Shown one piece after another: positions 11,124 to 53,000 of a DNA stretch of 64,000 bases; position 1 is the first letter of the stretch; each line of letters begins with the position of its first letter. The DNA is taken from IMG/VR virus record IMGVR_UViG_3300015263_001568, positions 1 through 64,000 of that record; one strand, given 5' to 3'. Position numbers and translations under genes: made by a program. Under the pieces are notes generated by a model. The model worked only from the letters and a program-made list of their open reading frames with translations, had not been told where the DNA came from and did no database searches. The DNA comes from a virus.

Positions 11124-12038
11124 TTAACCTACGCCCAGCACCTTATCGGCGATTTCACGCCCATGCTGGATACGTTTTTCGTTGAGTTCATGGCTGAAAT
11201 CTGCGCTGTCCCACAGCTCGATTTCCGGCTGAAAAAGTCGCACATTAATGTGGCGTTTTCCGGCCATCGCTGGATCGCCAAGCGCGATGCGCGCATTGAT
11301 GTGCTCCACCATTTTTAGGTCGAAGTACACATCGCGAATGAAAATTTCCGAGATGGCCAAACCAACAATGCGGAGCCCATAATTCACCAGATTTATTTTG
11401 GTACCAAACCAGTTGTCGTGCGGGTCATGCCCTGCAATCTGCCTGGGGTCCCGAGTCACTACAACGTCAATATCGTCACATCCCGCGTCGATGGCGCTCT
11501 TAAACGGTGTGATGGTGCGCACGCCACCGTCAGCCCAGAGGTCACCTTGGATCTCGATGGGCTCATAATCTGGAGGTGCCGCCGCAGACGCGTACACCCA
11601 GCGCCAGAATTCTTCTTTTGGCACTTCAGCGGGGCCGACTTCGCGATACGCACCCGTGCCGTACGACACTACGCCAACCACAAAATTTCTTCCAGAAGCC
11701 ACAATGGCATCATAGTCCAGATGCTTCTGGATCAGCTTTCGTAGCGGTGCAGCATTCCAAAGCCCTGTCTTCCACGGAAGCGAAAGGTACTTTCCAAATG
11801 GCCAGCGTTTGTAAATGTCGGAATTTTTGCGTACGTCGGTATTCCAGACAGCCAGCGCCTTGTCGACACCTTGGCGTAAATTACCAGGAGGACTGGTGGC
11901 TATGATGGAACCAACCAAAGCGCCGGCGCTTACGCCAAAAATGCGACCGTAGTCATAGCCAGCCGCAGCCAAGCGCTCCACCACACCGATATGGAAAGCT
12001 CCACGTGCACCCCCACCGCTGAGTACCAGAGTGCGCAT
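11124..12038 (-). CDS. Patatin-like phospholipase
   Basis: A 304-residue protein with the complete patatin signature: a Gly-rich oxyanion loop GGGARG at residues 8-13, the nucleophile elbow GVSAG with Ser37, and the DGG block with Asp170, forming the Ser-Asp dyad of patatin lipid acyl hydrolases. Expected activity is removal of acyl chains from membrane phospholipids. There is no signal peptide. The gene lies inside the tail-fibre group and its start overlaps the stop of a structural gene (TAATG), so it is made with late virion proteins. It could be packaged to disturb the host membrane at entry, or act in the cytoplasm during lysis; both are inference. Confidence 0.88.
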   Translation of the reverse strand: MRTLVLSGGGARGAFHIGVVERLAAAGYDYGRIFGVSAGALVGSIIATSPPGNLRQGVDKALAVWNTDVRKNSDIYKRWPFGKYLSLPWKTGLWNAAPLRKLIQKHLDYDAIVASGRNFVVGVVSYGTGAYREVGPAEVPKEEFWRWVYASAAAPPDYEPIEIQGDLWADGGVRTITPFKSAIDAGCDDIDVVVTRDPRQIAGHDPHDNWFGTKINLVNYGLRIVGLAISEIFIRDVYFDLKMVEHINARIALGDPAMAGKRHINVRLFQPEIELWDSADFSHELNEKRIQHGREIADKVLGVG

Positions 12039-24964: not shown

Positions 24965-27394
24965 TTAGCTTCGATCGTAGCGTGCTGCAATTTGTTGATA
25001 GCGCGCAGGGATGCCGCCTCTATACAGCGTTGACTCATTATTTTCGCGAACAGCCCACCACACTTGGTCCCAAACGGGATCTGCCAAAACTTCAGGCCGA
25101 TGGCTTACGACGAACACCGAGCCGAACTTTTGGCGCAGCATGCCTAGGATGCTGATCAAGCCAGCCGTCCCCTGCGGGTCGAGGCTTCCAAATGGTTCGT
25201 CTACAATGAGCACGTTTGTCGATGACTCTGTGTAGCGCTCTTTAAGGTCTCGCATACCAAACAGCATTGCCAATCCACTTTTGTGCTGCTCGCCTCCAGA
25301 TAGCAAGCTGCTACGCGTGGCAATATTACCATCTCGGCGACGGAGTTGGAATTGTATCGCATCCATGCTCTCTGACAACTCCAAGTCCACCGTGCGTCGG
25401 GGCCAGAGCACACTACTATACACCGGTACAGTAGTCTCAGTCGCGTCCTGCAAGATGGCGCGAAATCGATCTTGCTTGAGACCTTGGCTGCCGAATGCTT
25501 TCTTGAGGGCCTCCAGGCAGCGCTTGTTGCGCAGGATGCCAGTACCCTTAGCCAACCCCTTACGGACTTGAGCAAGCCGTGCCTGGAGCGTCTCCGATGC
25601 GCTGAGGCGCTCTTCCAGGATGGCTATCTGCCGACTCAGGTCTTCGGTCTGCGCAGTAGCGGAGCTGACGATCTTCTCGGCTCTGGCTAGCTGCTCCGCA
25701 GTCTGCTCGCGATTGCCTTTGGGAAGATCATCCATCTGGTCAATCCGAGTGCGCACCCGAGCAATAGCCTTCGCTCGTCGGCGCAGAGCGTTCGCCTTTT
25801 TGTGCAACCCGGCGATCTGCTCTTCTGGAACCGTACCGCGTGCATCTATTTCTTGTATCTGAATCTCAAGATCGTGCTTTTGCTGCGAAATTTCTTTTTC
25901 AGCCACCAGTTCTTTTTCCCGCTTGGTGGCTGTACGGATATCGCGCTGCACCTCTACCGGTGTGCGGGTGGTATCGATGGACTTGAGCCGTGCAGCTAAC
26001 TGCTCATACTTTTCTGAAGTTTCTAGCGCCGACTTGGCAGCGAATATTTCCTTCTTGACTTTACGCAGCTGCTGTCGGGCACCGCGCAGCTTTTCCCGCA
26101 GTGCTTCTGGATCGCTTTTTGTGTCGAGAGGGCGGTGGCACGTTGGGCAAACGCTCTTGTCTAAATGGCGTACTGTTACCTCTATCTCACGCTCTAGCGC
26201 CCCTTCTTCACGCATATACGCTTCTACTTGCTTGCGCAGCGGCTCAACATTTTCAGGCGGCTTGTCGAGTCCGGCCAGCTCTTCCGTGATTTCGTATCGC
26301 TGCTCAGCCTGTGGTAGCTCGGTATTTTGTAGGTAGCGCAGCTGTGACTTTACTTCGCTCAAGTCGGTGTCGATGTCCGCTAAGGCACGTCCAGACAGCT
26401 TGGACAGCTGGCGCTCAAGAATGTCTCTTCGTTGCGCTGCTTCACGTTGACGTTGCGCTGTATGATATGCATCCGACGCATCGGTGGCTTGTTGGTCGAT
26501 GGATTCGACTTCGGCGTCATCGATATCCGACGGTTTGTCGTACCATTTCCCGAGGTCTGCATCGTCCCAGATCACTCTGACCTGCTCAATAAGTTGCTTG
26601 CGCTGGTCGAGCTGGTTCAAGCGATCTCGTAGCTCCCGTGATTCCTGTACAGCCGCGTTGGACTCTGTGCGCAGCTCTTTTAGCTGGCGCTTGCGCTTCT
26701 TGAGTCTGGAACGCATTTTGTCGACATCACCAATATCGCCAGCGCGCGCTTCGAGGCTACCCAACTCGCGTTCCAAAGCCTCGATGTCGACCAAGCTAGT
26801 GGCCACGGATTTTTCACGGTCTCGGAAAATGGCGTACATGTTGTCGAAGACATCAAGCCCAAACATCTCTGTCAGGCGTTTGTAGCGATCGCTTCGCTTA
26901 CCATGCAGTAGCACATGGCTTAGCTTCTGCGGCAGGTACACCAAGTTGAAAAAGCTTGTGTCATCCAGACCTAGGTGAGCCTCACGGATCCATTTATGCG
27001 GCGCACGCGCAGCTCTGCTCGGAATGATGTTTTGGCCTGTGGACGTGTCCACAACACGGATCGCATCACCGTGAAGCGTGTGCTTACGATATTGTCGAAT
27101 TTCAAACGGGCGGCCATCTACGCGGTATTTTAGCACCGCCTCGAAGTCTTTTCCCGCAAGGTCGTTGACAACGTCGTTCTTGGAAAATTCCTGGCCCGAG
27201 CCTCGACCTCCGTAGCCTACCTGGATACTGGAAAATATTTCCCACAGTGAGGTTTTTCCACAAGCCAGGAAGCCACCATCGTCTACGTTCAATCCGCGCA
27301 CCAACACCAACCCTTGACCATCCAACGGTAAGTCGCAGTGGCGGTAGACGTAGCCGTTTTTGAACGTCAGGTGATCGTACTGAATGTGCGGCAT
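24965..27394 (-). CDS. sbcC: SbcC/Rad50-type ATPase (T4 gp46-like)
   Basis: An 809-residue SMC-like ATPase. Walker A is GFLACGKT at 41-48, the long central region is a coiled coil with a zinc-hook CPTC at 416-419, and the C-terminal lobe has the ABC signature LLSGGEQ followed by Walker B NVLIVDEPFGSLD. With the SbcD-like nuclease encoded at 29340 it should form a complex that processes DNA ends and hairpins and feeds recombination, as T4 gp46/gp47 do. Two genes and the clamp loader lie between the partners. The start overlaps the upstream stop (TAATG). Confidence 0.93.
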   Translation of the reverse strand: MPHIQYDHLTFKNGYVYRHCDLPLDGQGLVLVRGLNVDDGGFLACGKTSLWEIFSSIQVGYGGRGSGQEFSKNDVVNDLAGKDFEAVLKYRVDGRPFEIRQYRKHTLHGDAIRVVDTSTGQNIIPSRAARAPHKWIREAHLGLDDTSFFNLVYLPQKLSHVLLHGKRSDRYKRLTEMFGLDVFDNMYAIFRDREKSVATSLVDIEALERELGSLEARAGDIGDVDKMRSRLKKRKRQLKELRTESNAAVQESRELRDRLNQLDQRKQLIEQVRVIWDDADLGKWYDKPSDIDDAEVESIDQQATDASDAYHTAQRQREAAQRRDILERQLSKLSGRALADIDTDLSEVKSQLRYLQNTELPQAEQRYEITEELAGLDKPPENVEPLRKQVEAYMREEGALEREIEVTVRHLDKSVCPTCHRPLDTKSDPEALREKLRGARQQLRKVKKEIFAAKSALETSEKYEQLAARLKSIDTTRTPVEVQRDIRTATKREKELVAEKEISQQKHDLEIQIQEIDARGTVPEEQIAGLHKKANALRRRAKAIARVRTRIDQMDDLPKGNREQTAEQLARAEKIVSSATAQTEDLSRQIAILEERLSASETLQARLAQVRKGLAKGTGILRNKRCLEALKKAFGSQGLKQDRFRAILQDATETTVPVYSSVLWPRRTVDLELSESMDAIQFQLRRRDGNIATRSSLLSGGEQHKSGLAMLFGMRDLKERYTESSTNVLIVDEPFGSLDPQGTAGLISILGMLRQKFGSVFVVSHRPEVLADPVWDQVWWAVRENNESTLYRGGIPARYQQIAARYDRS

Positions 27395-27918
27395 TATGGT
27401 GTGGGTTTCTTCGGCTTCTTCGGTTTAGTGGCGGTGCTCTTAGGCTTGCTAGTTTTCGTCTTCGTTGTCTTTGCTTTACTCGTCGGCTTTACGACAGAGG
27501 TACTTTCTGCTTTTGGTTTGCGCTTAGTGGTGCGCTTTACCGGCGGAGGCGGTTCTTCCACAGTAGGAACTTCTGGTGCAGTAGGAACTTCTGGGGCAGC
27601 TTCTATGACAACTGTAGTTTCTGGCTCGATGATGGGCGTATCGATCGGCTCGGGGATGACGTCTTCCAGCACTTCTGGTGGCAAAGGCGCCATTTTTGCT
27701 TGTGCCAGCTCCAACAAACGAATGAAGTCCCCCATCAATACAAGGCGCCGGCCACGGCCCACCAAACCAGACCGCAGATGCTGCTCCTGGTCTTCACGTA
27801 GCTGCATCACTACATAGACGTTGTTGACATCCTCTTCAATAGCAGCCGCCAGATCACGGGCGTTCCTGCTAGAGAGAAATGCAGCCAACGTCACATGTGG
27901 GTCAGATTTTTCAGACAT
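27394..27918 (-). CDS. Hypothetical protein with Lys/Pro/Thr-rich tail
   Basis: A 174-residue protein from the ATG at 27918, which follows an AGGTGGG site and the upstream stop. The first 75 residues form a small helical domain (NARDLAAAIEEDVNNVYVVM). The remainder is disordered: Glu/Pro/Val-rich to about residue 125, then a Lys/Thr/Ser/Pro tail of about 45 residues (KTTKTKTSKPKSTATKPKKP) like histone H1 tails. The tail probably binds DNA or RNA. It is encoded between a zinc-ribbon protein and SbcC. Confidence 0.65.
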   Translation of the reverse strand: MSEKSDPHVTLAAFLSSRNARDLAAAIEEDVNNVYVVMQLREDQEQHLRSGLVGRGRRLVLMGDFIRLLELAQAKMAPLPPEVLEDVIPEPIDTPIIEPETTVVIEAAPEVPTAPEVPTVEEPPPPVKRTTKRKPKAESTSVVKPTSKAKTTKTKTSKPKSTATKPKKPKKPTP

Positions 27919-27919
27919 C

Positions 27920-28141
27920 TTACCCACCTGTCAGTAGCGCAATGTACGGGACCAACTCAGCTGGAACAGGGTCTAGGGTTACGTTGGTGGATGGGTAATC
28001 AGCGCAGTTAGTATTTGTGCAGACAGCTTTAGTCACCACAAAATGGAACACTGTGTTTTCAGGCTCCACATCTGTGCGGCGCACTTCACTTCCCGTGACC
28101 ATGAAATTGGTGTGGTTGCCGCAGACATTGCAAGTTGGCAT
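27920..28141 (-). CDS. Small zinc-ribbon protein
   Basis: A 73-residue protein with CNVC at residues 4-7 and CTNTNC at about 41-46, a likely single zinc ribbon, followed by a short hydrophobic end. It lies three bases after the clamp-loader stop, so it is probably co-translated with it. The role is unknown; small ribbons of this type often bind nucleic acid or replication proteins. Confidence 0.7.
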   Translation of the reverse strand: MPTCNVCGNHTNFMVTGSEVRRTDVEPENTVFHFVVTKAVCTNTNCADYPSTNVTLDPVPAELVPYIALLTGG

Positions 28142-28144
28142 TTC

Positions 28145-29335
28145 CTACTCTCCTTTACGCCGACGAGGTTTCTCTGACCAGGAAGACGTCACCGCAATGG
28201 CGCGCAACGTAGCCATATCGAGTAAGCCATGCTGGCTAGCGTACGATCGAGAGCGCTCTTGCACTCCGAGGAAAATGTCCAGCAGCTTGGCAATGTCTTG
28301 TATCTTCGCTACGTCGTGGTGCCCGTTTGGTAAACTAACACCTTTAAGATACCACGAATTTTGACTTATAGGAAGACGGCTTGGCTCCACCCAAGTGTAG
28401 AGAATTTGCTGAATGGTGGTGATCACACGGTTCAGAAAGAATACTAGGTCTACGGAGTCCGCCATGGCCTTTTGTACAGCAGCGAGCGTCTGCTCATATC
28501 GACCTTGGAACAACCCATCTACATACTGCTGCACGATGACGTAGCTGGCATAAGACTCCGACTCCTCCAGCACCTTCGGCAGCAGCGTTTCTAGGTCGAC
28601 TTTTCCATCAGCAACTTCCACAGCGTTTCTGAGCTGCGATAGCAAGGTCAGCGCATCTCTTGGATGACCGGCTGAAATTTCCGCGATCTTCTTCAGCCCT
28701 GTCTTCAGCTCTGCTTTCTTGAGCCCACTAGTGTGCAGTTCTTCTGCTTTGGCCACCCGCGCGAGCAGGCGATAGCACTCTGGCACCGTGACTGGGTTTA
28801 GATGGTAGCGTTGGCAACGGCTCAGAATGGTGCGCGGCACCAATTCCGGATTGGTGGTGCACAGAATAAAGCGCGTTCTCGGTGGTGGTTCCTCAAATAT
28901 CTTGAGCGCTGCTTGAAACGCGTCTTTGGTGATCTGGTGAGCTTCATCGAAGATGTACACCCGAAAGCGGCCAAAGCGCGGGGCGTACGCGATGTGCTGT
29001 TTCAGATCGCGAATATCACCGATGCCGCGGTTCGAGGCTGCGTTGATTTCCACAACGTCTGGGTGCTCCCCTTCACCACGGATGGCTTTCAACATGATTT
29101 TGCAGCTTGGGCATTCACCACAAGGCTCTTCCGCTGACTTTCGGCACACCAGATAGCGAGCGATCAAACGCGAGAAGCTGGTCTTGCCGGAGGAGTATGG
29201 GCCACTGAACAGAATCGTTGGAGCGATCCGCCCAGACTTGAGCATGCCACGGATATTATCCACGACATGTTCTTGGCCGATGACTTCCTCTAGCGTGGTT
29301 GGTCGATACTTGTTTGCGAGGCTTTTCGATTCCAT
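28145..29335 (-). CDS. Clamp-loader subunit, DnaX (gamma/tau)-like AAA+ ATPase
   Basis: A 396-residue protein from the ATG at 29335 (MESKSLANKYRPTTLEEVIG); a start at 29347 is also possible but too close to its ribosome site. It has Walker A GPYSSGKT at 45-52, a DnaX-type zinc module with Cys64 and CGECPSC at 72-78, a DEAH Walker B at 130-133 and the SRC arginine-finger motif at 172-174. It is closer to bacterial DnaX than to T4 gp44. It should load the sliding clamp encoded at 60754. The C-terminal 170 residues are helical, like the DnaX collar domain. No separate delta subunit was recognised here. Confidence 0.92.
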   Translation of the reverse strand: MESKSLANKYRPTTLEEVIGQEHVVDNIRGMLKSGRIAPTILFSGPYSSGKTSFSRLIARYLVCRKSAEEPCGECPSCKIMLKAIRGEGEHPDVVEINAASNRGIGDIRDLKQHIAYAPRFGRFRVYIFDEAHQITKDAFQAALKIFEEPPPRTRFILCTTNPELVPRTILSRCQRYHLNPVTVPECYRLLARVAKAEELHTSGLKKAELKTGLKKIAEISAGHPRDALTLLSQLRNAVEVADGKVDLETLLPKVLEESESYASYVIVQQYVDGLFQGRYEQTLAAVQKAMADSVDLVFFLNRVITTIQQILYTWVEPSRLPISQNSWYLKGVSLPNGHHDVAKIQDIAKLLDIFLGVQERSRSYASQHGLLDMATLRAIAVTSSWSEKPRRRKGE

Positions 29336-29339
29336 TTGT

Positions 29340-30401
29340 CTAGTCATCCTCGTAGGGGTTGCTGAAGGAAACACCTAGTTCCTTTGCCGCCGCGTCGACG
29401 AACTTGAACGCGTGTGGCAAATACTCCTCCGGCAGACCAGCTTGCAGCAGTGTGTTGTCCAACCCGTCGAAAATGCCATGCACTCGGCGCGCATTCTGTG
29501 GAAGCGCTCGCGCCGGCATCTCTTCTCCAGGTTCAACATTCATCGGTAAAGGCATGGTGGACGTGGGCATCGCGTGGAGCTTCACAAAAGCTTCAGCCGC
29601 GCTAGGCCACACGTCAGGAACTTCATGTAGTTCAATCAGCTTGGTAGAACGTATTGGGACGTATTTCGGATTCGTTGGATCGGCGGTATCGACGACCAAA
29701 ACGCCTTTGTCGAGGTCTTCTCCAAATCTCGTTTGGTGCGGTGCGCCGCAGTACCACGCATTGGGCAAAATCGACTGCCGTTTATGGATGTCTCCAAGTG
29801 CCCAATAAGTAACGCCGTCGATCGGTTCCAAGTGCACTTGCGCATTCGACGTCACCATGAGCCCAGTATCCGTTTTGCTACCCACCACATTTTCATGCAG
29901 CACGACAATGATTGGCTCACGATGACGCTGCGCATACCGCACCATCGAGTGCACCATCAAGTAGACCTCTGCATCCTTCCACCCGTGACTGGGATCTCTA
30001 GCGGGAAACAGAAGCAGCTGACATCCATGCATCGACTTTATCAATGGCAAGCCGTCATGAATGAAATGCTTCCCCAAAATGTCGGTCATCCGGCTCAAGT
30101 AGCTAAGCGACGTATCCCCAATTTGACTTGAACGCACATCATGGTTCCCGCTGATCATCACGATGGGAACCGGCGACGACGCCAGCCAGTCCGTGAGGAC
30201 TTGTCGTTCTTGATGCAGGATGTCGCGGCGTTCCCAAATGTCACCAGCAACGATGGTAAAGTCGACGCGGTGCTTTCTAGCCGCCTTATGTATGCCCTCC
30301 AACGTCTGCACCATCCGACGCAAATACGCGGCCTGACTATGATCAGAGAACCGCCGCAGCGCATTGATGTGCAAATCGGACGTATGCAGAAACCTAGGCA
30401 T
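29340..30401 (-). CDS. sbcD: SbcD/Mre11-type nuclease (T4 gp47-like)
   Basis: A 353-residue calcineurin-type phosphoesterase with the metal-binding motifs in order: TSDLHI (D9, H11), AGDIWE (D54), SGNHD at 84-88, and later VVLHEN and ALGDIHK. It should be the nuclease partner of the SbcC-like ATPase. The C-terminal 100 residues, ending in an acidic tail, would hold the SbcC-binding region. Its ATG overlaps the stop of the HNH-histone gene. Confidence 0.93.
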   Translation of the reverse strand: MPRFLHTSDLHINALRRFSDHSQAAYLRRMVQTLEGIHKAARKHRVDFTIVAGDIWERRDILHQERQVLTDWLASSPVPIVMISGNHDVRSSQIGDTSLSYLSRMTDILGKHFIHDGLPLIKSMHGCQLLLFPARDPSHGWKDAEVYLMVHSMVRYAQRHREPIIVVLHENVVGSKTDTGLMVTSNAQVHLEPIDGVTYWALGDIHKRQSILPNAWYCGAPHQTRFGEDLDKGVLVVDTADPTNPKYVPIRSTKLIELHEVPDVWPSAAEAFVKLHAMPTSTMPLPMNVEPGEEMPARALPQNARRVHGIFDGLDNTLLQAGLPEEYLPHAFKFVDAAAKELGVSFSNPYEDD

Positions 30402-30775
30402 CAGAGGTCGTGCGGCCGAGCCGTCTTGCGCGCATTCTCCTGCACGCGCTTTACAGCCTTCAGCATCATGCCATAGACTTCGTGGGCAAGAGCGCTGGTA
30501 AGCTTGGGATCGATGCGCACGTCGTGGTACTTGAAGTATTCCTTGATTTTAGAAGCGGTCAGGATCTTGACGCCCATCTCCTTAACGGCCTTCTGGTGCG
30601 CCTCCAACCGAGCGCGCTTGTCATTGCTCTGAGCCGACCCATCAGCACCCTTCTTGGACTTCTTTTTCTTCTTTGCCACAGGAGCATCACCCTCGGTCTT
30701 TGCCTTCTTCTTTTTCTTCTTCGCTGTGGTGGCGTCGCCGTCGGTGATGGTCTTCTTAGTCTTCTTTTTCTTCAT
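30401..30775 (-). CDS. Possible separate histone-fold protein from an in-frame internal start
   Basis: An AAGGAG site lies eight bases before an ATG at 30775 in the same frame as the HNH gene. Starting there gives a 124-residue protein: a Lys-rich N-terminal tail (two KKKKKK-type clusters) and then the histone-fold domain of about 52 residues. Tail plus short histone fold is the layout of bacterial histone-like proteins. Either the phage makes both forms, or a former stop between two genes was lost. Whether the short form is really made cannot be told from sequence. Confidence 0.45.
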   Translation of the reverse strand: MKKKKTKKTITDGDATTAKKKKKKAKTEGDAPVAKKKKKSKKGADGSAQSNDKRARLEAHQKAVKEMGVKILTASKIKEYFKYHDVRIDPKLTSALAHEVYGMMLKAVKRVQENARKTARPHDL

Positions 30776-31318
30776 TGAGTCGGCTCCTTGTCCATGCCGT
30801 TTATGATGACATGGTATGCAGAGTGTGCGCATGTTAGCGAGGTCACATTGTCCTCCACCTTGATGCACAGGAATGATGTGGTCGGCATCCCAATAGCCCC
30901 GAGATTTTCGTGCCCCACGCGGTGCTCCCAAGATACGCTGCCAATGCATGGCATCGATAGTGCGCTCGGCAGACACAGTGTCGAGACCGCATTCTGCGCA
31001 TATACCACGGTCGCGAGAGTAGACTTGTCTGCGTAGATATCTCGGATCGCTACGGAGTTTGAACTCTTCCACACAATGGTCTGAGCAAAACGTGCGGCGC
31101 CCTTTCGGCACCTCGATTTTGCAGTAGCGGCAGAGGCTGCGGCCGTTCGCACCTTTGGGCAATAGCTGCGGGTAGCGAACACGTCCGCGGAACGCGCCAC
31201 TACGCATAGTGCCGTCTGCCTCAAAGTACATTTTCGTGTACTGTGCACGTAGTTGCTCAACCTCTGTGTCAGACAGCGCACTTAAAGGCCGACGGCGTCT
31301 TCGATGGCGTTTTCTCAT
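30401..31318 (-). CDS. HNH endonuclease fused to a histone-fold domain
   Basis: A 305-residue protein in three parts. Residues 1-175 are an HNH nuclease with two metal modules (CRYC 63-66 with FCSDHC 78-82; CAEC 107-110), the core DADHIIPVHQGGG at 145-157, N162, and CIPCHHKRH at 167-175. Residues 182-235 are a Lys-rich linker. Residues about 253-305 read like a bacterial/archaeal-type histone fold: SKIKEYFKYHDVRIDPKL, then AVKRVQENARKTARPHDL, where the ARKTxRPxDL ending matches the last loop and helix of short bacterial histones. A strong internal ribosome site precedes Met182, so the histone part may also be made alone. A nuclease held on DNA by a histone is the inferred role; some HNH proteins help terminases or act as homing enzymes. 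Confidence 0.8.
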   Translation of the reverse strand: MRKRHRRRRRPLSALSDTEVEQLRAQYTKMYFEADGTMRSGAFRGRVRYPQLLPKGANGRSLCRYCKIEVPKGRRTFCSDHCVEEFKLRSDPRYLRRQVYSRDRGICAECGLDTVSAERTIDAMHWQRILGAPRGARKSRGYWDADHIIPVHQGGGQCDLANMRTLCIPCHHKRHGQGADSMKKKKTKKTITDGDATTAKKKKKKAKTEGDAPVAKKKKKSKKGADGSAQSNDKRARLEAHQKAVKEMGVKILTASKIKEYFKYHDVRIDPKLTSALAHEVYGMMLKAVKRVQENARKTARPHDL

Positions 31319-31729
31319 CGGCTAGTATTTGCTGCGCATAGCGACCTGGAAACGTTACAGGATTTATCTTTCGCAACATGGTCAAAATCGCTTTGGATGG
31401 CTTTACCCAACCTAACGCCAGTGCTGACAGCGCAATTGTTTGCAGGTTCTCGTCATTCAGGCATTCACGAAGAATGATCTGCTGCTGCCGCATGTCGGAA
31501 ACAAGCACGCCAAGATACACTTCCAAGGCTTGTCCACGCAGCAGAAAGTCCAGATTAGTATCTCGGATGAGGGCACGTATTTGGCGTCCGGTTCCTTTGT
31601 CATCCGAAATGATGGCGTCTTCTAGCTGCGCCAGTGCGCTTTATACTCTCGTGGTCGATCCTCCAAGAGCAAGTAGCGAACTTGTTCCAATACTGATTCC
31701 GGTGGTGATGTTGCATTAACTGGTAGCAT
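31269..31729 (-). CDS. Hypothetical protein interrupted by a frameshift near 31640
   Basis: The gene starts at an ATG at 31729 that overlaps the upstream stop (TAATG) and reads 35 codons to a TAG. In the -1 frame a good coding stretch begins at the same place and continues to 31269 (LAQLEDAIISDDKGTGRQI), with no ATG of its own before residue 50. Joining the two near TATAAAGCGCAC gives about 150 residues, mostly helical. The junction is not a classical X-XXY-YYZ slip site, so a one-base loss (true mutation or sequencing error) is more likely than programmed frameshifting. The function is unknown. Confidence 0.6.
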
Positions 31730-32697
31730 TAAGACCTATGCAAAATAGCTCCTACTGGAAGCTTGGTGCTCTTCCAGCCTCGGTGCTTTTGTAGTTCCTC
31801 AACGTAGACTACCGCGGCCCCCTGTAGGCCACCGAGCTGCTGGAGCACCGCAGCAGCACGATCACGCGATGGTCGTGCCCAGAATACCGTATTCGAGCCG
31901 TCGTAGAAACTCGTGACTTTTTCAATGGGCGAATGGTCGATTTGCATCGTGAGCAGCCGCCCATGTACATCGCCCAAGCGACTATCGATCAAGTCAAGCT
32001 GCTGGTAGAAAGCTGCTGCTTGACGCCGATCAAACGCCTCTTCTGGATGCCGAGGTTGCAGCAAGCCTGTACGTCGCCGGAGACCGGCTACAAGCTGTCG
32101 CCGTGCTTCCAGGTAGAAGGCCCATATGGTTGCCGACAAAGGCTTCCTATGGGCCTCTACAGGCGTCCAGGTAGCAAGCCAGACATCCTGCGCAGCGACC
32201 GGCATCAGCCGACTCAGGGCAAACAAGCGCTGCCGTTCAACGCCCGTGCGCAGTGCATGAAAGAGGCCGAAGGCTAAACTATTGATATCATTGAAAACTT
32301 CAATGGACGAAGGCGGAAACCCAAGCCAAGGCGGACTGCCGTTACCGAGAAGGTCTACGCGCGTGCGAAATGCCTTCCAAAATGGCTCGACCACTTCTTC
32401 GACCGCACCTTTCGTGGTGAGCCACTTTGACACACTTTCTGCCCAACGAGTAGCCTTTGCCGCAGCGAGCACGAGGACGTTTCGCTGGGCATCCTGTAAA
32501 CGCTGTAGGAAGCTCTTGAGGTCACTCAAGGGTTTCGCTACCTGCCAGGTACCACTGGGGCCTTCCTTGGCGCCTCGTGGCGTCCAGGAGGCATCCCAAG
32601 ACTGTGCTGCATGGATAGTGCAGTGTGGCCCGCCGTTGCGCTTGCCGTGGATGACGCACACAGTGTCCGCAAGGCTATTCGTCATCGTCATCGGCAT
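31729..32697 (-). CDS. Hypothetical protein following recA
   Basis: About 318-322 residues; three nearby ATGs (32697, 32691, 32685) overlap the end of recA and none has a clear ribosome site. There is a His/Cys-containing N-terminus (CVIHGKRNGGPHCTIH) that could bind a metal, then long helices with Arg-rich stretches and a C-terminal alpha/beta part. No known domain was recognised. Its place between recA and the SbcCD/HNH genes suggests a recombination or repair role. Confidence 0.65.
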   Translation of the reverse strand: MPMTMTNSLADTVCVIHGKRNGGPHCTIHAAQSWDASWTPRGAKEGPSGTWQVAKPLSDLKSFLQRLQDAQRNVLVLAAAKATRWAESVSKWLTTKGAVEEVVEPFWKAFRTRVDLLGNGSPPWLGFPPSSIEVFNDINSLAFGLFHALRTGVERQRLFALSRLMPVAAQDVWLATWTPVEAHRKPLSATIWAFYLEARRQLVAGLRRRTGLLQPRHPEEAFDRRQAAAFYQQLDLIDSRLGDVHGRLLTMQIDHSPIEKVTSFYDGSNTVFWARPSRDRAAAVLQQLGGLQGAAVVYVEELQKHRGWKSTKLPVGAILHRS

Positions 32698-33964
32698 AAT
32701 AGCGGGACCGCGGAGCTGCGTCTGTCTTCGATTTGGTCTTCTTGGCTTTCTTTGATTTTTTGGTAACAGCTGTCGTTTCTATGACAATTGGAGTCTTCGT
32801 ACGCGGCTTCTTGGTGGTAGCCGTCGCAACCACATCCTCTCCATAGTCCTTGTCGAAGTTGTACGTACGATTACCAGAAATCTCAAAAAAGCGGTCGTAG
32901 TTTTCAGGCTGCTGCAACATCAGAAAGAACTTCTGTCGATTGCGCGGACTGTAGCTCATCTTACGAAACGATGGCAGGTCCCACTTCTTGTTATCGAGGC
33001 CCTTGAGGTTGATCGAACGCCTTCCAGCCGCCGTCTTCAAAAATCCCAAGGCTGCCAAGAATTGCTGCGTGTCGTACGCCTTATCCACGCCATGGCCTGG
33101 GATGATCTGCAAATCAACGGTGAGCCAACTAGGAAAGCACTTGTTCTTTGTGGTGCGCACCGTCGCCGGAATAATTTGGACACCCATACTATCCCGGCTC
33201 TCTTTTCCAAGTGTCTTGTCACTGCGTCGACTTACGCGCAGCTTGTAGTCCGGATAAAATCGCAGCGCTTTTCCGCCAGTTTCTTGGTCAGGGGCACCAT
33301 AGGCACCAATGTTGCTCCGCACTTGATTTGTGCCGACCAACACGCCGCCTTTTTTGCGCAGGCGTACCTTAATTTGCTTCAGGTACTGACTATGCATCCT
33401 AGGCTCCGGTGTGATGCCACCACCCGTGCCTGTTTCCTCATCCACGTTTTCACTGCTCAATGCCGCAAAACTGTCGACAAAAAATGCGATAGTTGGAGGA
33501 CCCGACGTCACATCCGGCATCCGATTAAGCGTGCGCATGATGAGGCGATATGTGTCTTCTCCCGTGTCAGGCTGTGCGTAGTAAAAAGACGCGTACTTCT
33601 GCTTACCAACGCTTAGCTTGTGCTCAATCCGTAGTCCTTGCCGCTGCATGAACACAGGATCGGCACCAGTTTCTGGATCGAGGAACACTACAGGAATGCC
33701 TTGTAGCTGTGCCGACACGGCAATTTCTTGTAGTAAGGTAGATTTACCAACGTGTTCTCCGCCAAAGATGGTGCAGAACCGACCACGCTGAAGTCCGCCA
33801 CCGAAAATCAAATCCAGCGATAGGACACCTGTAGAAAGGCAGTCGAGGACACGCTGACCTTTCATCAGATTGATTGGGTCTAATCCATCAATGGAGGCAA
33901 ACGCTTCGGCAACAGCCTGAGAAGGATGTACCAGGTTGTATTCGCGCTTTTTCTTTTTCGCCAT
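32675..33964 (-). CDS. recA: RecA-like recombinase
   Basis: A 429-residue strand-exchange protein. It has Walker A GGEHVGKS at 68-75, FLDPETGADP after it (the catalytic Glu region), a Walker B strand IAFFVDSFAAL, and an L1/L2-like region with GTNQVRSN and ETGGKALRFY, the RecA NQ-R and GGxALxFY blocks. The C-terminus is extended: a helical domain, a Lys-rich part and a DDDDE end like the acidic RecA tail. It should coat single-stranded DNA together with the SSB candidate encoded nearby. Its ATG directly follows the stop of the upstream gene. Confidence 0.93.
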   Translation of the reverse strand: MAKKKKREYNLVHPSQAVAEAFASIDGLDPINLMKGQRVLDCLSTGVLSLDLIFGGGLQRGRFCTIFGGEHVGKSTLLQEIAVSAQLQGIPVVFLDPETGADPVFMQRQGLRIEHKLSVGKQKYASFYYAQPDTGEDTYRLIMRTLNRMPDVTSGPPTIAFFVDSFAALSSENVDEETGTGGGITPEPRMHSQYLKQIKVRLRKKGGVLVGTNQVRSNIGAYGAPDQETGGKALRFYPDYKLRVSRRSDKTLGKESRDSMGVQIIPATVRTTKNKCFPSWLTVDLQIIPGHGVDKAYDTQQFLAALGFLKTAAGRRSINLKGLDNKKWDLPSFRKMSYSPRNRQKFFLMLQQPENYDRFFEISGNRTYNFDKDYGEDVVATATTKKPRTKTPIVIETTAVTKKSKKAKKTKSKTDAAPRSRYYADDDDE

Positions 33965-34397: not shown

Positions 34398-36146
34398 TTA
34401 CCGCCCGCGACCTTTTCCCGAGCGCTTCTTTGCCGGTGGCTCGTCGTCCTCATCCTCCTCATCCTCGTCGTCCTCGTCCTCATCGTCTAGATCGTCGTCG
34501 TAGTCCTCATCCTCCTCATCCTCGTCGTCTAGATCGTCGTCGTCATCCTCGTCCTCGTCGTCCTCATCCTCGTCGTCCTCGTCGTCCTCATCCTCGTCGT
34601 CGTCCTCGTCGTCCTCATCCTCGTCGTCTAGATCGTCGTCGTCCTCGTCGTCCTCATCCTCATCCTCGTCGTCCTCGTCGTCCTCGTCCTCGTCGTCCTC
34701 ATCCTCGTCGTCTAGATCGTCGTCGTCCTCGTCGTCCTCGTCCTCGTCGTCTTCGTCCTCGTCGTCCCCATCCTCGTCGTCCTCGTCCTCGTCCTCGTCG
34801 TCTTCGTCCTCGTCGTCCCCATCCTCGTCGTCCTCGTCCTCGTCCTCGTCGTCCTCGTCCTCGTCGTCCTCGTCCCACTCTTCGTCGTCATCTTGTACAA
34901 AGCTACGCCCACTGGGTGGCGTCTCCGCCTCGTCTTCGTCGTCGTCATCATCATCTAGATCAGGCTTGGATGGCTTGGCCTTTTTAGCCGGCTTCTTTGC
35001 CGACTTTTTCGCGCTGCTCTTCTTTGCAGGCTTGGCATCTTCTTCATCCTCGTCCTCATCATCTAGGTCAGGCTTGGACTTTTTCGCGCTGTTCTTCTTT
35101 GCAGGCTTGGCGTCCTCATCAGCGCCCTTTTTACCTTTCTTACCCCAGCCCTTCCAGTCATCACCAGCGTCGTCATCGTCATCATCCGACTTCGATTTGG
35201 ACTTCTTCGGCTTCTCAGCCTTCACCTTGCCGGCCTTCTTGCTCTTGTCCTTGACCTTGGACTTTTTCTTATCCTTGTCTTTTGTCTTGGCGGCCTTCTT
35301 ACCCTTGGACTTCTTCGGAGTCTCTTCCTCTTCGGCATCGTCATCAGTCTCGTACTCGAAGTCGTCATCAGTGACTTTGGATTTCTTCTTGGAACTACTG
35401 CTTGTGCTCTTCACTGCGCTTCTCCCAGTTGTTTTTTCCAGTAGAGTGTAGAGACCCACCCGTTCTAGATCAATGCGTGTAGTGGCGCCGTCTTGCAGAC
35501 CGGCATTCCACATGCTCAAAAAGTCCTGTTCTCCTCCCTCGTACACGCGCTTGCCAACTTTGATTTGATAAATGTCATCGAGTTGCTTAATGGGTAGCCG
35601 GTCACCCTTTACGAACGCATCCTTTTCCTTAGAGTCCTTAGCGTCCTTATTGTGCGTCCAGTACACGGACACACCATACTTCGGATGTACGATGGTGCCC
35701 TCACCGCCCCTAATGGTCTTGCTGATATTTAGCAAGTCGGTGTACCCATACTTGTTCAACTGCATCGCCCCAGTACCGTTTTGCACATTGCCCTGCTCCA
35801 ATGCAGTAATGTTGAAACTATGTGCGATGTAGCGCCGTTGTGGGTAAAAGAGAAGTTCTTCTGGCAGATCGTCACCGGTGAAGTCAGCGCACAAAGGGCA
35901 ATCGCACTTGTTCGCCGGAAGGGTGCTATCGTTCACTGGATCGAAGTTCGAGCAAAGCTGCGGGAACGTCTTTACTTCACCCTTCTTGTTTATAAACCTG
36001 ATCCAGTGCCACACGAGCACAAAAATGTGTCCGTAAAGCCTATGGATGTGTTGTCGACCGCCAGCTGGCGGTTCGTGATAATGCGCCTTGCCGTCCCACC
36101 GTTCACGCTTGTTGCTCGTACGTGGCGGATTATTCCAATCGTGCAT
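34398..36146 (-). CDS. Probable single-strand DNA-binding protein with a giant acidic tail
   Basis: A 582-residue protein with a strong GAGGAG ribosome site. The N-terminal 230 residues form the folded domain, with a possible zinc site (KCDCPLC near 80-87, plus an upstream Cys and His) followed by strands ending RRYIAHSFNI, as in phage SSBs that carry a zinc knuckle and an OB fold. Residues about 240-415 are Lys/Ser/Asp-rich linkers. Residues about 418-572 are almost only Asp and Glu. Bacterial and T4 SSBs end in acidic tails that recruit partners; this one is far longer. Neighbouring recA supports the SSB reading, but no OB-fold search could be run, so a chromatin-like acidic protein remains possible. 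Confidence 0.6.
   Translation of the reverse strand: MHDWNNPPRTSNKRERWDGKAHYHEPPAGGRQHIHRLYGHIFVLVWHWIRFINKKGEVKTFPQLCSNFDPVNDSTLPANKCDCPLCADFTGDDLPEELLFYPQRRYIAHSFNITALEQGNVQNGTGAMQLNKYGYTDLLNISKTIRGGEGTIVHPKYGVSVYWTHNKDAKDSKEKDAFVKGDRLPIKQLDDIYQIKVGKRVYEGGEQDFLSMWNAGLQDGATTRIDLERVGLYTLLEKTTGRSAVKSTSSSSKKKSKVTDDDFEYETDDDAEEEETPKKSKGKKAAKTKDKDKKKSKVKDKSKKAGKVKAEKPKKSKSKSDDDDDDAGDDWKGWGKKGKKGADEDAKPAKKNSAKKSKPDLDDEDEDEEDAKPAKKSSAKKSAKKPAKKAKPSKPDLDDDDDDEDEAETPPSGRSFVQDDDEEWDEDDEDEDDEDEDEDDEDGDDEDEDDEDEDEDDEDGDDEDEDDEDEDDEDDDDLDDEDEDDEDEDDEDDEDEDEDDEDDDDLDDEDEDDEDDDEDEDDEDDEDEDDEDEDDDDDLDDEDEEDEDYDDDLDDEDEDDEDEEDEDDEPPAKKRSGKGRGR
34440..34890 (-). repeat. Low-complexity GAC/GAG-type repeat encoding the Asp/Glu tail
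   Basis: About 450 bases built almost entirely from Asp and Glu codons (TCGTCGTCCTCG-type units on the plus strand), with a longer imperfect repeat containing TCGTCGTCTAGATCGTCG appearing at least four times. Length variation through slippage, and assembly errors, are both likely here. Confidence 0.85.
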
Positions 36147-46538: not shown

Positions 46539-47042
46539 TTGAGCCCGCGTATCGCCATCTCGACTACTGGCTACCCCGTCAAGACGGGTGTGGCAACGGA
46601 GATACAGGTTGGTAGCCTCCGTCACCTTCTACAAGCCGCGGAGAGCCTCGCTGAGCAGCCCTACCGGCTTGTGGCTATCTACCCCTTTGGCCAACCTCGA
46701 AAAGCCGTATACGACGTCCTAGACAGCCTGGAGAAGTCCCTTTGCTCTGCCAAGGTGCTGGTGGTCTGCCGGCACGGCGCGCAGGCCATAGTGCCCGACT
46801 TCCTTCAGCCGCACCAACGGCTCCGGCGGCCAAACGGGCACATCGATGTCATGGTCCACGTTGACCGTGACTTGGCGTGGGAGCCGCCCACGAATCTTTC
46901 GCTCGACATCCATCCGACGACAGGGCGATTCAGCCGCTGGGCTATTCAACAAGGCTTGGTGCCGATCGTTCTGCGCCGGATAACGTCTGTTCAAAAGTGC
47001 AAGGACCTCTACAACCTTCTAACCGCTGAGGCAGCTCTATGA
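46539..47042 (+). CDS. Hypothetical protein coupled to the ribonucleotide reductase
   Basis: About 167 residues starting at a TTG at 46539, which has an AAGGAG site; no suitable ATG exists, and an in-frame TTG at 46488 lacks a site. It reads as an alpha/beta fold: AIYPFGQPRKAVYDVLDSLE, then SAKVLVVCRHGAQAIVPDFL and HIDVMVHVDRD. It ends in TGA overlapping the reductase ATG (ATGA), so it is translated just ahead of it. The function is unknown; a link to nucleotide metabolism is inference from the coupling. Confidence 0.6.
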   Translation: MSPRIAISTTGYPVKTGVATEIQVGSLRHLLQAAESLAEQPYRLVAIYPFGQPRKAVYDVLDSLEKSLCSAKVLVVCRHGAQAIVPDFLQPHQRLRRPNGHIDVMVHVDRDLAWEPPTNLSLDIHPTTGRFSRWAIQQGLVPIVLRRITSVQKCKDLYNLLTAEAAL

Positions 47043-50000
47043 TCCAAGCGACCTATCAACAGCGAATCATGCTCGACCGCTACGCGCAGAAGGACCCGCA
47101 CGCAAAGCCAAAGGAAGGCGACTTGGTCATCGTCAAGATGACGCGCTCTTTTTCTTTGGATGGCGAGGAGATCACATCGCGTGAGCTTGGGCAAATTACC
47201 GAGGTCACCAATGGCGGCGGACCGGCACGCTACACTGTCGAGCTGGAAAATGAGATCGTAGCCGATCTCGATCGTAGCCGTGTAGAAGTCATCGTTGAAA
47301 AGACACCCGAGGACATCTGGCAGCGCTTGGCCAACGGCATCTGCAAAGCTGAATTTCTATATCTCAGCAATCCTCCGGACAGCCTTGCCTGGCAGCACAT
47401 TCAGTACCAGCTTGATCAAGCCGTGCTCCCGGACCAATGGAAGCCCATCCGGGAATTCCGCGACAAAGTCTATTCGGCGTTGTCACGCAATGAGTTCATT
47501 CCAGCCGGTAGAATCCAAGTTGGCCTCGGTCGAGAAGACCTCACGCTGACCCTGTTCAACTGCTACGTGCTGCCGCGACCTGAAGATTCTAGGCACGGCA
47601 TCACACGCCGCTGGGGTGAGATGTTCGAGATTTTCGCGCGTGGCGGCGGTATTGGATTTGACGTTAGCAGCATGCGCCCCGCCGGTGCGCCAGTTGCCAA
47701 AGTCAGTGGGCGATCCAGCGGCGCCATCAGTTGGATGGAGCAATGGAGCCAAGTCACCGGAGAAGTGGAGCAGGGCGGCTGCTTTTCTGGCAATACACGC
47801 ATTGCCACCACCAAAGGTTTAATCCGCGCAGAGGATCTAGCGAACCGTATTGACGCCGGCGCGCCGCACTGTGTGTATACGCATTCTCGTCCTCCAAGAC
47901 ACGTCACGCACGTTTTCCGAAATGGCCAGAAACGATTCTTTCGCGTGACCACCAAACGTGGCTATGAAATCGAAGTCACGGGTGACCACAAGATGGGTGT
48001 GCTCAAAGAAGGGCGCATTGAAACGGTGCCGCTAAAGCACCTTTCTGTTGGCGACAATGTGCTTCTATTGCTTCCAAAATGCCAATTCCCCGAGAAGTCC
48101 GCTGTGGAGTTGTCGGCAATCGACTACGAAAAGCCAAAGATGAGCACCACGCTCAACGAAGACGTGCGCTTTCCAATCACACTAAATGGGAAGCTCGCGT
48201 ATGTACTCGGCTACATGTACGGCAACGGTAGCGTCATCATGGGCAAGAAAGTCACATGGTCGTCGCCCAAAGGCATTTCGATGTCCGTGCCAACCAGTCG
48301 AGAAGACATTGCATGCAAACTGCAAGATTATATCCTCGACTGTTTTGGAGTGGTCGCCGAAATGGAGCCAGGCGACGGAGCCTGCGTGAATGTGAAACTG
48401 TACTCGCGCATCGTGGTGGAGTGGCTGAATACGAATGGCCTACTGAAGAAAAAAGCTGCGGATATCCGTGTACCCGAGCAGATATTTCATGCACCGGAAA
48501 CGGTAGTCAGCTCATTCGTTTCCGGCTACTTCGACGCAGATGGATCCGACCGCGGCATCAAAGGAGGCTACGGATTCGACTCTATCAGCAAAGGTATGCT
48601 GCAAGACGTGCAGAAGATTCTAGCCAGCTTTGGCATCGCTGCCAAGCTACGTCCAGAAGACCGGTCTTCTACAGGGTGGAGCACCCTCTACAGACTATCT
48701 GTAACGGGACCCGTATTTAAGGAACGCTTCATGGACTTCGCACGCTGGTCGATGAAGGCACAGCGACATACATCCAGGCGTGACACGAACATGTACCCGA
48801 TGGAAGCCTTCAAATCGTGCCAGGTGGATCCCAAGCTCTATAAAGGCTTGGTAGCAATTTCCTATGACGTGGTCTCGTATGCTGCGGTTAGCCGCGTTTT
48901 GGATCGCGCCGGTGATGAAGGACTGGGTGGGTCTGAACAGGCTGCCAAGATGGACGCACTGCTAAACGTTCTACCGGATGCCATTGATAGCATCGAAGAC
49001 GTCGGCATGATGGACGCTTTTGACTTTGAAGTCGATGAAGTCCACATGCTCAGCGGCGATGGATTCTACACCTCGAATTCCCGAAGAGGCGCTACGCTCT
49101 TTGGTATCGCGCCTTGGCATCCTGATGTCGAGCGCTTCATCGAGGTCAAGTCGGAGCGCAGCGCTTTCCGCATGTCGGGTGACGAGCTGCTTCAAAGCCT
49201 CAACCCCGAGATCATGGAGCAGTTCGGCGCACAGCTTCGTAAAATCTTCGTTGGGAAGGAAGATGCTGCCTCGATCAGCCGCAGCAAAGACCTCATCAAG
49301 AACGCCAATATCAGCGTGCTGTTCACCGAGGCGTTCATGGATGCCGTCGAGCGCGATGACTACTGGGACTTCGTTTTCCCTGACACCTCAGATCCGGAGT
49401 ACGACGCCATCTGGCATGGTGACATCGAGGCTTGGCGCGCGTTGGGCAAGCCCGTCATCCACTACGGCACCAAGAAGGCACGTGATCTTTGGTACCGCCT
49501 CATCGACCGTGCGTGGGCGTCGGGAGAGCCAGGTGTCCTTTTTGTCGATAGAATGAACGAAATGAGCAATAGCTGGTACTATGCGCCCATAGAGTGCACA
49601 AACCCGTGCGTTACCGGTGATTCGCTCATCTACACCAGCCGCGGTCTGATCACGGTGGACGATCTGATGGCGGAGCGCACGCAGCCCCAATATCTTGTCG
49701 ACAGCCGCTTCGGCTACGAGCCTACATTTTCTGAAGGCACCAAATTCTGGTGCTCGGGTGAGAAGCCCATCTATCGTCTAGAGACTAAAGAAGGCTACAC
49801 CATCCGCGCCACAGCCGACCACAAGATCATGACGTCGCGCGGGTGGGTGCAACTTGCGAAGTTAAAGGAAGGCGACAAAGTGCACATCGCCAATCGCGGT
49901 GGCGCTTTCGGAAAAGAAGGCACGCTAGAGTTCGGCCGCGTCTTGGGCTGGTTCATTGGCGATGGATATTTCACTGGTGAAAAAGCCATATTGGATTTCT

Positions 50001-53000
50001 ACGGAGATAAGCATCAGCTAGCCGACACATTCGTAGGCTACGTGCAAGACTTGGTCGGGCACGACAAGGACTATAATCCACAGTACAACATCACAGGGTA
50101 CACGGTTGAGGCGCGCGATCTGGTAACCATTCAATCCGAACGCCTCTACCAAATGCTGCACGAGTTTGGAATCACGGAAGACACCAAGCTGCGCGTGCCG
50201 AAGATCGTGCAGCGTGGCACCGCTGACATGCAGCGCGGGTTCCTTCAGGCGCTGTTTGATGCGGATGGCTCAGTTCAGGGGTCAAACAAGAATCCTACGA
50301 CAGTCATTCGGCTGACCTCTATCTCGGATGACTTGTTAATCGGTGTACAGCAGCTTTTGTTGAACTTCGGCATCGCTTGCCGCATCTACTGGGAACGCCG
50401 ACCTGCCGGCTACCGTAAACTGCCGGATGGCAAGGGGGGCTTGAAGCGCTACTGGTGCCAGGCGTATCACGAGCTAGAAATCTCAAAAGCAAATCTGCAA
50501 GTGTTTGCGGACGAAATCGGGTTCCTCCGTGATGTCCACCAAGGTAAGCTACGAACGCGCCTTGCCGCCTACATCCGACCACCACAGGCCGAAAAGTTCA
50601 CTGCACGCGTGTTCAGAATCGAAAGCGATGGTGTAGAGAAGGTCTACGACGTCACCGTTCACAACACCCACAGCTTCGTAAGTAGTGGAATTTGCTTAGC
50701 AAATTGCGGTGAGCAGAGTTTACCAGCCAACTCGGTTTGTAACTTGGGTCACATCAATTTAGCACAGTTTGTTCGTGCCTCCAGTGAAAATTTCCCAACC
50801 AGCTCCCGCACCAGCGAAGACGCGCAGCGAGCCTTCAATCTGCCGCACTTTAGGGACGTCGTAGCAACGTGCGTTCGTTTCCTCGACAACGTGATTGATG
50901 TCGAGAATTTCTTTATCCCTGCCGTCGAAGAACGCCAACGTGCTGAACGCCGTGTTGGCCTTGGCATTCTTGGCTACGGAGAGCTGCTAGTACGTCTTGG
51001 GCTTCGCTATGGATCTGACGAGGCGGTCGACTTCACGCACTGGCTTTTCCAGCAGCTCGCTGAAGCCAGCTATAGAGCGTCTGTTGACTTGGCAAAGGAC
51101 CGTGGTGAATTTCCGCTATTTGATGCTGAGAAGTTCCTCCAGTCTGGCTTCATGAAGGGCATGCCGTCAGAAGTACGCGACGCAATACGCGAGCACGGTA
51201 TTCGCAACGTCACATTGAATACGATCGCGCCAACGGGTTCCGTGGGCACCGCGGTTGGCACCACTACAGGCATCGAACCCTATATTGCCTTGAATTGGCT
51301 AGCCCGTAGTCGCGTTGGTGAAGCAGCGGAAAAAGCCAACGTGATGGAAAAGCTGGAAGAGAAATTCGGTGAGCGTAGCAATTGGCCCGACTACTTCGTA
51401 ACCATCGCCAACATCACGCCATCGGAGCACGTCAGAACGCAAGCAGCAGCGCAGCGTTGGATTGATTCCTCCATCTCCAAGTGCGTTACCGGAGATACCC
51501 TGATAGCGACAACGGACGGACTTATCCGTATTGCATCGCTGCACCAAGGGGAAGCGGCCGACAGTTTCAGAGATGCAGAGCTAGAAGTGGCTTCGGTAGG
51601 ACCGAATCAGAAAACGTCTGCCTTCTATTACGGCGGACCTAGGACGGTGAAGAAGGTAGTCCTTCATTCTGGTCATACCGTGAAAGGCACGGAAAATCAT
51701 CGACTGCTTGTCGGCACAGTAGACGGTCTGCGTTGGGTAAGGATGGATCAAATACAAGAAGGCGATCTAGTAGCCGCCCGTTATGGCGCGGATATTTGGT
51801 CATCGCAGCCGTCAAAATTTGCTGACTTCTCCCCAAGCCAAAAATATGGAAATCAGAAGTCCGTTAAGCACCCGATTGAGATGACTGAGGACTTGGCCTG
51901 GCTTCTGGGTGCCTACGCGGCCGAGGGCCATACTACACAATCCACTTGGACAATCACCATCACAAACTCAGTAGAGGCGGTGCTACAAAAGGCCGTAGCT
52001 GTCTGGGAATCAGAATTTGGCGTTGCTGCACGCATAACTCGACAGAGCGGGAAATGCCCTGGTGTAGAAGTCGCCTCAAAAGAAATCGTAGAATTCTTTG
52101 ACTACCTTGGGTGTGGCCATAGATCGAACGAAAAGCGGATTCCGGAGGTGGTACTACGCTCTCCAAAACCGATGGTTCTAGCATTTCTACAAGGTCTGTT
52201 TTTGGATGCCTACACTACTGATGGCACGCTAACAAAATGGGCCATCTGCCTAAATTCCAATGGCATGTTGGATGACCTACAAGCGATCCTTACCAACTTG
52301 GGTGTTATTCACAGCCGAATCTCCAAGTACAACCCTGACTACGACAAGCATTATGACGAAGTGTACGCCTGTGGATTAGACGCGCAGAAGCTCATGTCCA
52401 TGGTGCCGTTCATGGAACCGGACAAGAAGGCACGCGCGGACGCCATTCTAGCAAAAGACCTTAGTAGCTGTATCAACAAAGCAGACATCGTGCCTGTTGA
52501 CCGCCGTGCTTTGCATGAACTGATTCCACATGGGAAACGGAAAGCCTTCGGCGCTGCGCTACGAAATGTGAATACTACGTTCCCAAGCCGGCATACGATT
52601 GAACGGTTTGCCGCAGCGTACCCAAACGCGCTACCAGATTACGTGAGAACCATCTTGGACAGCGACCTGCATTTCAGCCCCGTGATGTCGATTGCGGACG
52701 ACGGTGTGCAGGAAGTTTTTGACCTATCCGTTCCTGACAACCATGCTTTTGTAGGAAATGGGATCGTAAACCACAACACGGTCAACCTACCGCAGAGCGC
52801 TACCATAGAGGACGTGAGCGAAGCCTACCTGGAAATGTACCGCCAAGGTTGCAAAGGCGGAACGGTATATCGTGACCGCTCACGCGATCGGCAGGTGCTC
52901 TACACTCTCGATGAACAGCCGGCAATCGTCGAAGAGCTTACCACTGCGGAATTTGAAGAAGCAGCGCCTGAAGGGTGCCTGCGCCCGCGGCTGTCTGTCG

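Follow-up and report, generated by a model that had tools for sequence, protein, structure and literature searches.

A candidate two-start gene placing an HNH nuclease in frame with a face-to-face histone in the replication and recombination cluster of a large-phage lineage

Introduction

Face-to-face (FtF) histones are defined by residues R48, N52, R54, and D61 (published FtF logo numbering), with the RxTxxxxD motif forming the RD clamp and R48 and N52 serving as tetramer residues (PMC11390915). The tetramer of the histone HLp wraps approximately 60 bp of DNA (PMC12701072). One class of alpha3 phage histones has been described, and it lacks the FtF motif (PMC11390915). The histone fold is also found, rarely, in polyvalent proteins, with no HNH-histone fusion mentioned (PMC5512222). 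Among HNH nucleases, mutation of D1020, H1021, N1036, or H1045 in human ZRANB3 reduces or abolishes cleavage, and the nearest structural relative of the ZRANB3 HNH domain is the junction resolvase T4 endonuclease VII (PMC5481773).

Here, a window of 64,000 nucleotides (positions 1 to 64,000 of the 80,099-base IMG/VR viral record IMGVR_UViG_3300015263_001568, a metagenomic viral contig) was analyzed. The window comes from a bacterial virus of a large tailed-phage lineage. Each part of the gene described below is of a known kind; what appears to be new is their combination and the placing of FtF histones within a replication operon of a phage.

Results

Composite open reading frame and its operon

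An open reading frame (ORF) that encodes an HNH nuclease followed by a histone fold was found within a cluster of replication and recombination genes. An earlier note, made from the DNA sequence alone, had reported this in-frame arrangement without a strand; the frame is indeed open and lies on the minus strand. The composite ORF and its neighbors were annotated as follows.

30401 to 31318, minus strand: HNH-histone composite ORF, 305 amino acids (aa), stop codon included, no internal stop; same open architecture in a related phage (L034:5218-5985)
31729 to 32697, minus strand: conserved gene preceding the insert, similar in its motifs to D12-type adenine DNA methyltransferases
32675 to 33964, minus strand: UvsX/RecA-like recombinase (phrog_97, E = 6.9e-47)
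29340 to 30401, minus strand: SbcD-like nuclease subunit (phrog_100, E = 2.2e-22)
28145 to 29374, minus strand: clamp loader (phrog_5846, E = 1.4e-69)
24965 to 27394, minus strand: SbcC-like subunit (phrog_77, E = 1.1e-58)

Gene order on this strand was sigma factor, acidic-tailed protein, UvsX, methyltransferase-like conserved gene, composite ORF, SbcD, clamp loader, and SbcC. By coordinates, the SbcD start codon overlaps the histone stop codon (TGATG), which suggests that the two may be translationally coupled. Because of this overlap, and of an ATGA overlap at the same boundary in the related phage L012, the histone was considered a member of the UvsX-SbcD operon. The methyltransferase-like gene had no PHROG match and shared 25 to 27% identity with its counterparts in the relatives L002, L014, and L015, where it directly precedes the histone.

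An 85-aa ORF with a TTG start (31269 to 31526, minus strand) overlaps the HNH start. It had no phage homologue, was missing from the syntenic gap of the relatives, and may have arrived together with the HNH sequence. In the C-terminal half of a 582-aa protein (34398 to 36146, minus strand), extended blocks of lysine give way to a very long repeat of Asp and Glu, and lysine-rich C-terminal stretches were also found in UvsX and in the ORF at 27394 to 27927; charged low-complexity tails seem to be a habit of this phage. Elsewhere in the window, an ORF at 11124 to 12038 (minus strand), amid apparent structural or late genes, had by eye the look of a patatin-type phospholipase (GGGARG ... GVSAG), and a single 2,201-aa ORF (47039 to 53644, plus strand) lies on the strand opposite to the composite ORF.

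HNH nuclease part

The N-terminal part of the composite ORF contained the following features.

30776 to 31318, minus strand: HNH nuclease part (residues 1 to 181), with Pfam, PHROG, and PDB matches and DH-N-H residues invariant in the homologue alignment
30794 to 30895, minus strand: HNH motif (residues 142 to 175; Pfam PF01844, E = 7.5e-8, above the curated cutoff)
31073 to 31132, minus strand: Cys-rich motif C63/C66/C78/C82, N-terminal to the HNH core, read from the sequence

Residues 48 to 192 matched phrog_11604 (E = 7.7e-20), and the N-terminal nuclease proposed earlier was borne out by this and the Pfam match. The catalytic residues D146, H147, N162, and H171, the zinc cysteines C107, C110, C167, and C170, and C63, C66, and C82 of the Cys-rich motif were invariant among the aligned homologues. 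The best PDB match was the HNH domain of human ZRANB3 (E = 6e-12 for the window and 5e-15 for L034), and the spacing of D146-H147-N162-H171 was identical to that of D1020-H1021-N1036-H1045 in ZRANB3. Judged from its sequence, the N-terminal part is an intact HNH nuclease of the ZRANB3 type. Both phage HNH domains (window 30776 to 31318, minus strand, and L034:5218-5727) matched human ZRANB3 above any other solved structure, and a prokaryotic or viral pool is hinted at as the possible origin of the ZRANB3 nuclease.

Stand-alone phage HNH homologues were approximately 155 to 180 aa long and ended approximately 17 to 35 residues past the last HNH histidine. The HNH start at 31318 was not preceded by a Shine-Dalgarno (SD) sequence. 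The full-length AlphaFold model, built from an alignment without HNH homologues, was poor (mean pLDDT, 54.7), and its HNH part was not usable.

Histone part

The C-terminal part of the composite ORF had no Pfam or NCBIfam family match and was assigned by other means.

30404 to 30568, minus strand: alpha3 FtF-type histone fold (residues 70 to 124 of the short form), identified by profile, AlphaFold2, Foldseek, and invariant FtF residues

Searched with phmmer against PDB sequences, the C terminus matched HTkC (9f2c; E = 8.4e-5) and HLp (9qt0; E = 0.0021), and a profile of five phage homologues matched Leptospira HLp (E = 1.6e-10) and archaeal HTkC (E = 1.5e-8). The AlphaFold2 model of the 124-aa part (pLDDT of approximately 84) contained helices at residues 74 to 83 and 90 to 113 and a 3-residue stub at 121 to 123, preceded by a disordered tail and an extra helix (47 to 67). 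This is the helix-loop-helix-loop-(short) helix arrangement expected of a histone, with the truncated alpha3 (3 to 4 residues) of FtF alpha3 histones. The top four Foldseek matches were chains of HLp and HTkC (probability, 1.00; TM-score on target, 0.65) with E values of 0.026 to 0.067, which are weak probably because half of the query is disordered.

R48, N52, R54, and D61 were invariant in six phages. The RxTxxxxD motif (NARKTARPHD in the window) was present together with R48 and N52, and the protein ends one residue past the motif. The conserved DNA-binding lysines of alpha1 were present (SKIKEYFK in the window); S13 was invariant and K14 was found in five of the six phages, with R in L015. 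The C-terminal part was firmly identified as an alpha3 FtF histone. The bacterial/archaeal-type fold named in the earlier note is supported by the HLp and HTkC profile and Foldseek matches; its reference histones, Bd0055 and HMfB, give way to the FtF histones HLp and HTkC as nearest relatives.

Several candidate affiliations were rejected. The bacterial dimer histone HBb (Bd0055) ranked below HLp and HTkC in Foldseek and was missing from the sequence matches. The protein was not placed in the phage-histone class of Schwab et al. 2024, as it contains RxTxxxD and has no C-terminal domain. The phage histones of a 2025 report (PMC12619734) are H1-like proteins of a different kind.

Junction between the two parts

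A second potential translation start was found where the two parts meet.

30784 to 30789, minus strand: SD sequence AAGGAG, eight bases upstream of the internal ATG
30773 to 30775, minus strand: internal ATG (residue 182), SD preceded, start of the short histone form (predicted product, 124 aa)
30626 to 30775, minus strand: lysine-rich N-terminal histone tail, beginning at the internal ATG

Across 29 window genes, an SD of ≥6 nucleotides (nt) preceded 1 of 163 internal in-frame ATG codons, that of residue 182 alone. The background in 13 related loci was 29 of 745 internal ATG codons for an SD of ≥5 nt and 4 of 745 for ≥6 nt. Stand-alone histones of related phages were preceded by AAGGAG (L002 and L015) or AGGAG (L014), with no clear SD in L012, and the junction in L034 read AGGAG N6 ATG. 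These sequence features make it highly likely that the gene also yields a stand-alone histone of 124 aa.

The histones of L002, L014, L015, and L012 have short basic tails in the equivalent position. Given the SD-preceded ATG at its start and the stand-alone relatives, the lysine stretch, previously read as a linker between nuclease and histone, is most simply the histone's own tail. Linker sequence was not conserved between the two phages with an open junction, only its openness, and the L034 linker was not lysine rich. A search for tandem repeats from which the tail might have arisen turned up only a short CTT run. In the window, the internal ATG follows a TCA codon, which a single base change would turn into a stop.

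Related phages and gene history

Relatives were reached solely via syntenic SbcD and SbcC searches of IMG/VR; pattern scans of IMG/VR that used a single sequence, either the histone or the whole ORF, gave no match. Five further distinct phages carried a homologous histone at exactly the same site, as a separate gene in four and in frame with an HNH nuclease in one.

L002 (identical to L003 and L004): stand-alone histone, 82 aa, directly before SbcD
L015 (IMGVR_UViG_3300018080_000098, 349.8-kb contig): stand-alone histone, 84 aa, directly before SbcD
L014 (260-kb contig): stand-alone histone, 91 aa, directly before SbcD
L012 (108.6-kb contig): stand-alone histone, 85 aa, directly before SbcD
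L034: HNH-histone ORF (5218 to 5985), in frame without a stop, before SbcD

Each of the four records with a stand-alone histone held a single copy. L015 and L014 are relatives of jumbo size with a single-copy stand-alone FtF histone in the UvsX-SbcD cluster. No histone was detectable in more distant phages with a UvsX-SbcD cluster (contigs of up to 424 kb), genome-contig scans with histone alignments revealed no bacterial relative, and tblastn searches of phage and plasmid collections with the histone returned nothing credible.

In a tree of UvsX and SbcD, the window grouped with L002, L015, and L014 (support, 91), and L034 grouped with L012 (support, 83). Identity between the window and L034 was 51% for the HNH part, 41% for SbcD, 37% for UvsX, and 32% for the histone. 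The window histone was 42 to 45% identical to those of the L002/L015/L014 group and, by identity, appears to follow its phage backbone. The tree allows three histories for the HNH-histone ORF: presence in the ancestor with two or more losses, two gains, or transfer between phages; the higher identity of the HNH part than of the backbone genes makes lateral movement of the nuclease possible. The first view of the HNH sequence as a one-off insertion was overturned by the in-frame ORF of L034, which also means that homologues are not always nuclease free or separated by a stop.

Discussion

The reading that we favor, which we put at even chances, is that of a functional gene with a long and a short product in a replication and recombination cluster. 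Translation from the internal ATG (30775) would yield the 124-aa FtF histone with its lysine-rich tail, which by analogy with HLp may form tetramers wrapping approximately 60 bp of DNA. Translation from 31318 would yield a 305-aa long form, in which the ZRANB3-type HNH nuclease is N-terminal to the same histone and which could join the short form through the histone dimer and tetramer interfaces. A minority of histone particles would then carry a nuclease and keep the HNH domain at the DNA of the phage (or host). Given the operon (UvsX, SbcCD, and clamp loader) and the nearest relatives of the nuclease, its substrate is likely to be branched DNA, found at forks or in recombination intermediates. 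The sequences show the anatomy of the locus, the family of each part, the junction signals, the recurrence in L034, and the synteny; we infer translation from both starts, coassembly and tethering, the branched-DNA substrate, and a selective value of the long form. Against this reading, four of six phages do without the nuclease, so that the long form is dispensable in the lineage, the HNH start has no SD, and the linker is conserved in its openness alone. A more specific picture is somewhat doubtful: nuclease-armed chromatin, in which substoichiometric HNH-histone subunits, coassembled with the plain FtF histone, would carry a structure-specific nuclease on phage nucleosome-like particles and trim forks or recombination branches near UvsX and SbcCD.

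The main rival is that the histone is the sole selected product and that a selfish, homing-type, free-standing HNH gene was inserted before the histone ribosome-binding site and lost its stop, with read-through tolerated but useless; we consider this a serious contender with somewhat less than an even chance. Its intergenic position and patchy presence on the tree are compatible with a homing endonuclease. The gap before the histone in L002, L014, L015, and L012 is short or without HNH, and no HNH sequence was found across their whole records (G001 to G006). Many phages have free-standing HNH homologues, the HNH identity between the window and L034 exceeds that of the backbone genes, and the window insert also holds the 85-aa ORF without phage homologues. 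However, the junction stop was missing in both of the two genomes with HNH before the histone, although these lie on different branches with histones 32% identical, and in both the histone SD was kept in frame. If read-through were a tolerated accident, stops in the linker would have no cost and should have arisen over this divergence, and harmless read-through needs two insertions at the same site and in the same frame unless the two parts were inherited together or transferred as a unit. Weighing against the two-start reading, two cases are few, and the chance of an open in-frame junction in L034, given a stopless HNH gene there, is not very low (rough estimate, 0.1).

It is improbable that only a single fusion protein is made, with the internal SD and ATG unused and the lysine stretch acting as a flexible tether of the nuclease to the histone fold. 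The ORF is uninterrupted in two phages, and alpha3 histone fusions exist (ZZ and Rab GTPase; PMC11390915), but an SD was present at the junction in both phages versus a background of 0.5 to 4%, stand-alone relatives have the same SD position and a basic tail from the same point, and the linker of L034 is not rich in lysine. Of the two possibilities raised in the earlier note, a nuclease anchored through a histone or a gene pair now read through, the open frame was upheld; one simple fused protein was not, as four of six histones are separate genes.

An assembly or sequencing error, in which one base change removed a stop before the histone ATG, is very unlikely: the contig is metagenomic and TCA is one base from a stop, but the independent contig L034 is open too, with a different junction sequence. 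The chance that the C terminus is not a histone and resembles one by accident is close to negligible, as the missing Pfam/NCBIfam match and Foldseek E values of >0.001 are outweighed by the HLp profile match, FtF histones at the top of the Foldseek ranking, and FtF residues invariant in six phages.

The earlier statement that no standard family combines HNH and histone parts also held: 50,697 phage records contained neither the HNH-histone architecture nor an FtF histone that the searches could find, and neither is described in the literature searched (outside most subscription journals and bioRxiv preprints). Histones of the FtF type, which form tetramers and wrap DNA, are placed by these data in the core replication and recombination operon of a large-phage lineage, a lineage-wide occurrence of interest in itself. 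Within what was searched, this is the first case of a phage histone fold joined to a nuclease. As an apparent source of histone both with and without an attached nuclease, the gene could serve as a simple, expressible system in which to ask whether phage DNA is organized by nucleosome-like particles and whether enzymes are recruited through them.

Comparison with known systems

The ZRANB3 HNH domain (PDB 5MKW; PMC5481773) resembles the phage nuclease in its catalytic spacing and zinc Cys dyads, and both have, from the dyad to the DH pair, residues missing from the Caulobacter phage homologues. Unlike the phage protein, ZRANB3 is a eukaryotic SNF2-helicase protein that depends on ATP and PCNA and has no histone fold. 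The HNH proteins that Caulobacter and Brevundimonas phages encode as free-standing genes (phrog_11604) belong to the same HNH family (32 to 40% identity), but these genes lie close to those for the capsid, end at a stop of their own, and have no histone attached.

HTkC of Thermococcus kodakarensis (PDB 9F2C; PMC11390915) has the same fold as the phage histone but is archaeal, with no tail and no nuclease. HLp of Leptospira perolatii (PDB 9QT0-9QT2; PMC12701072) shares the very short alpha3, the N-x-R-x-T-x4-D motif, and the N-tail; it is a 63-aa chromosomal protein, whereas the histone described here is encoded by a phage gene adjoining SbcD, with an HNH nuclease in frame before it. The phage histones of Schwab et al. 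2024 (PMC11390915) likewise have an alpha3 histone fold and occur in tailed phages, but their histone fold is N-terminal, followed by a C-terminal helical tetramerization domain, and they lack RxTxxxD, whereas the histone described here has that motif almost at its very end and is extended at the N terminus instead.
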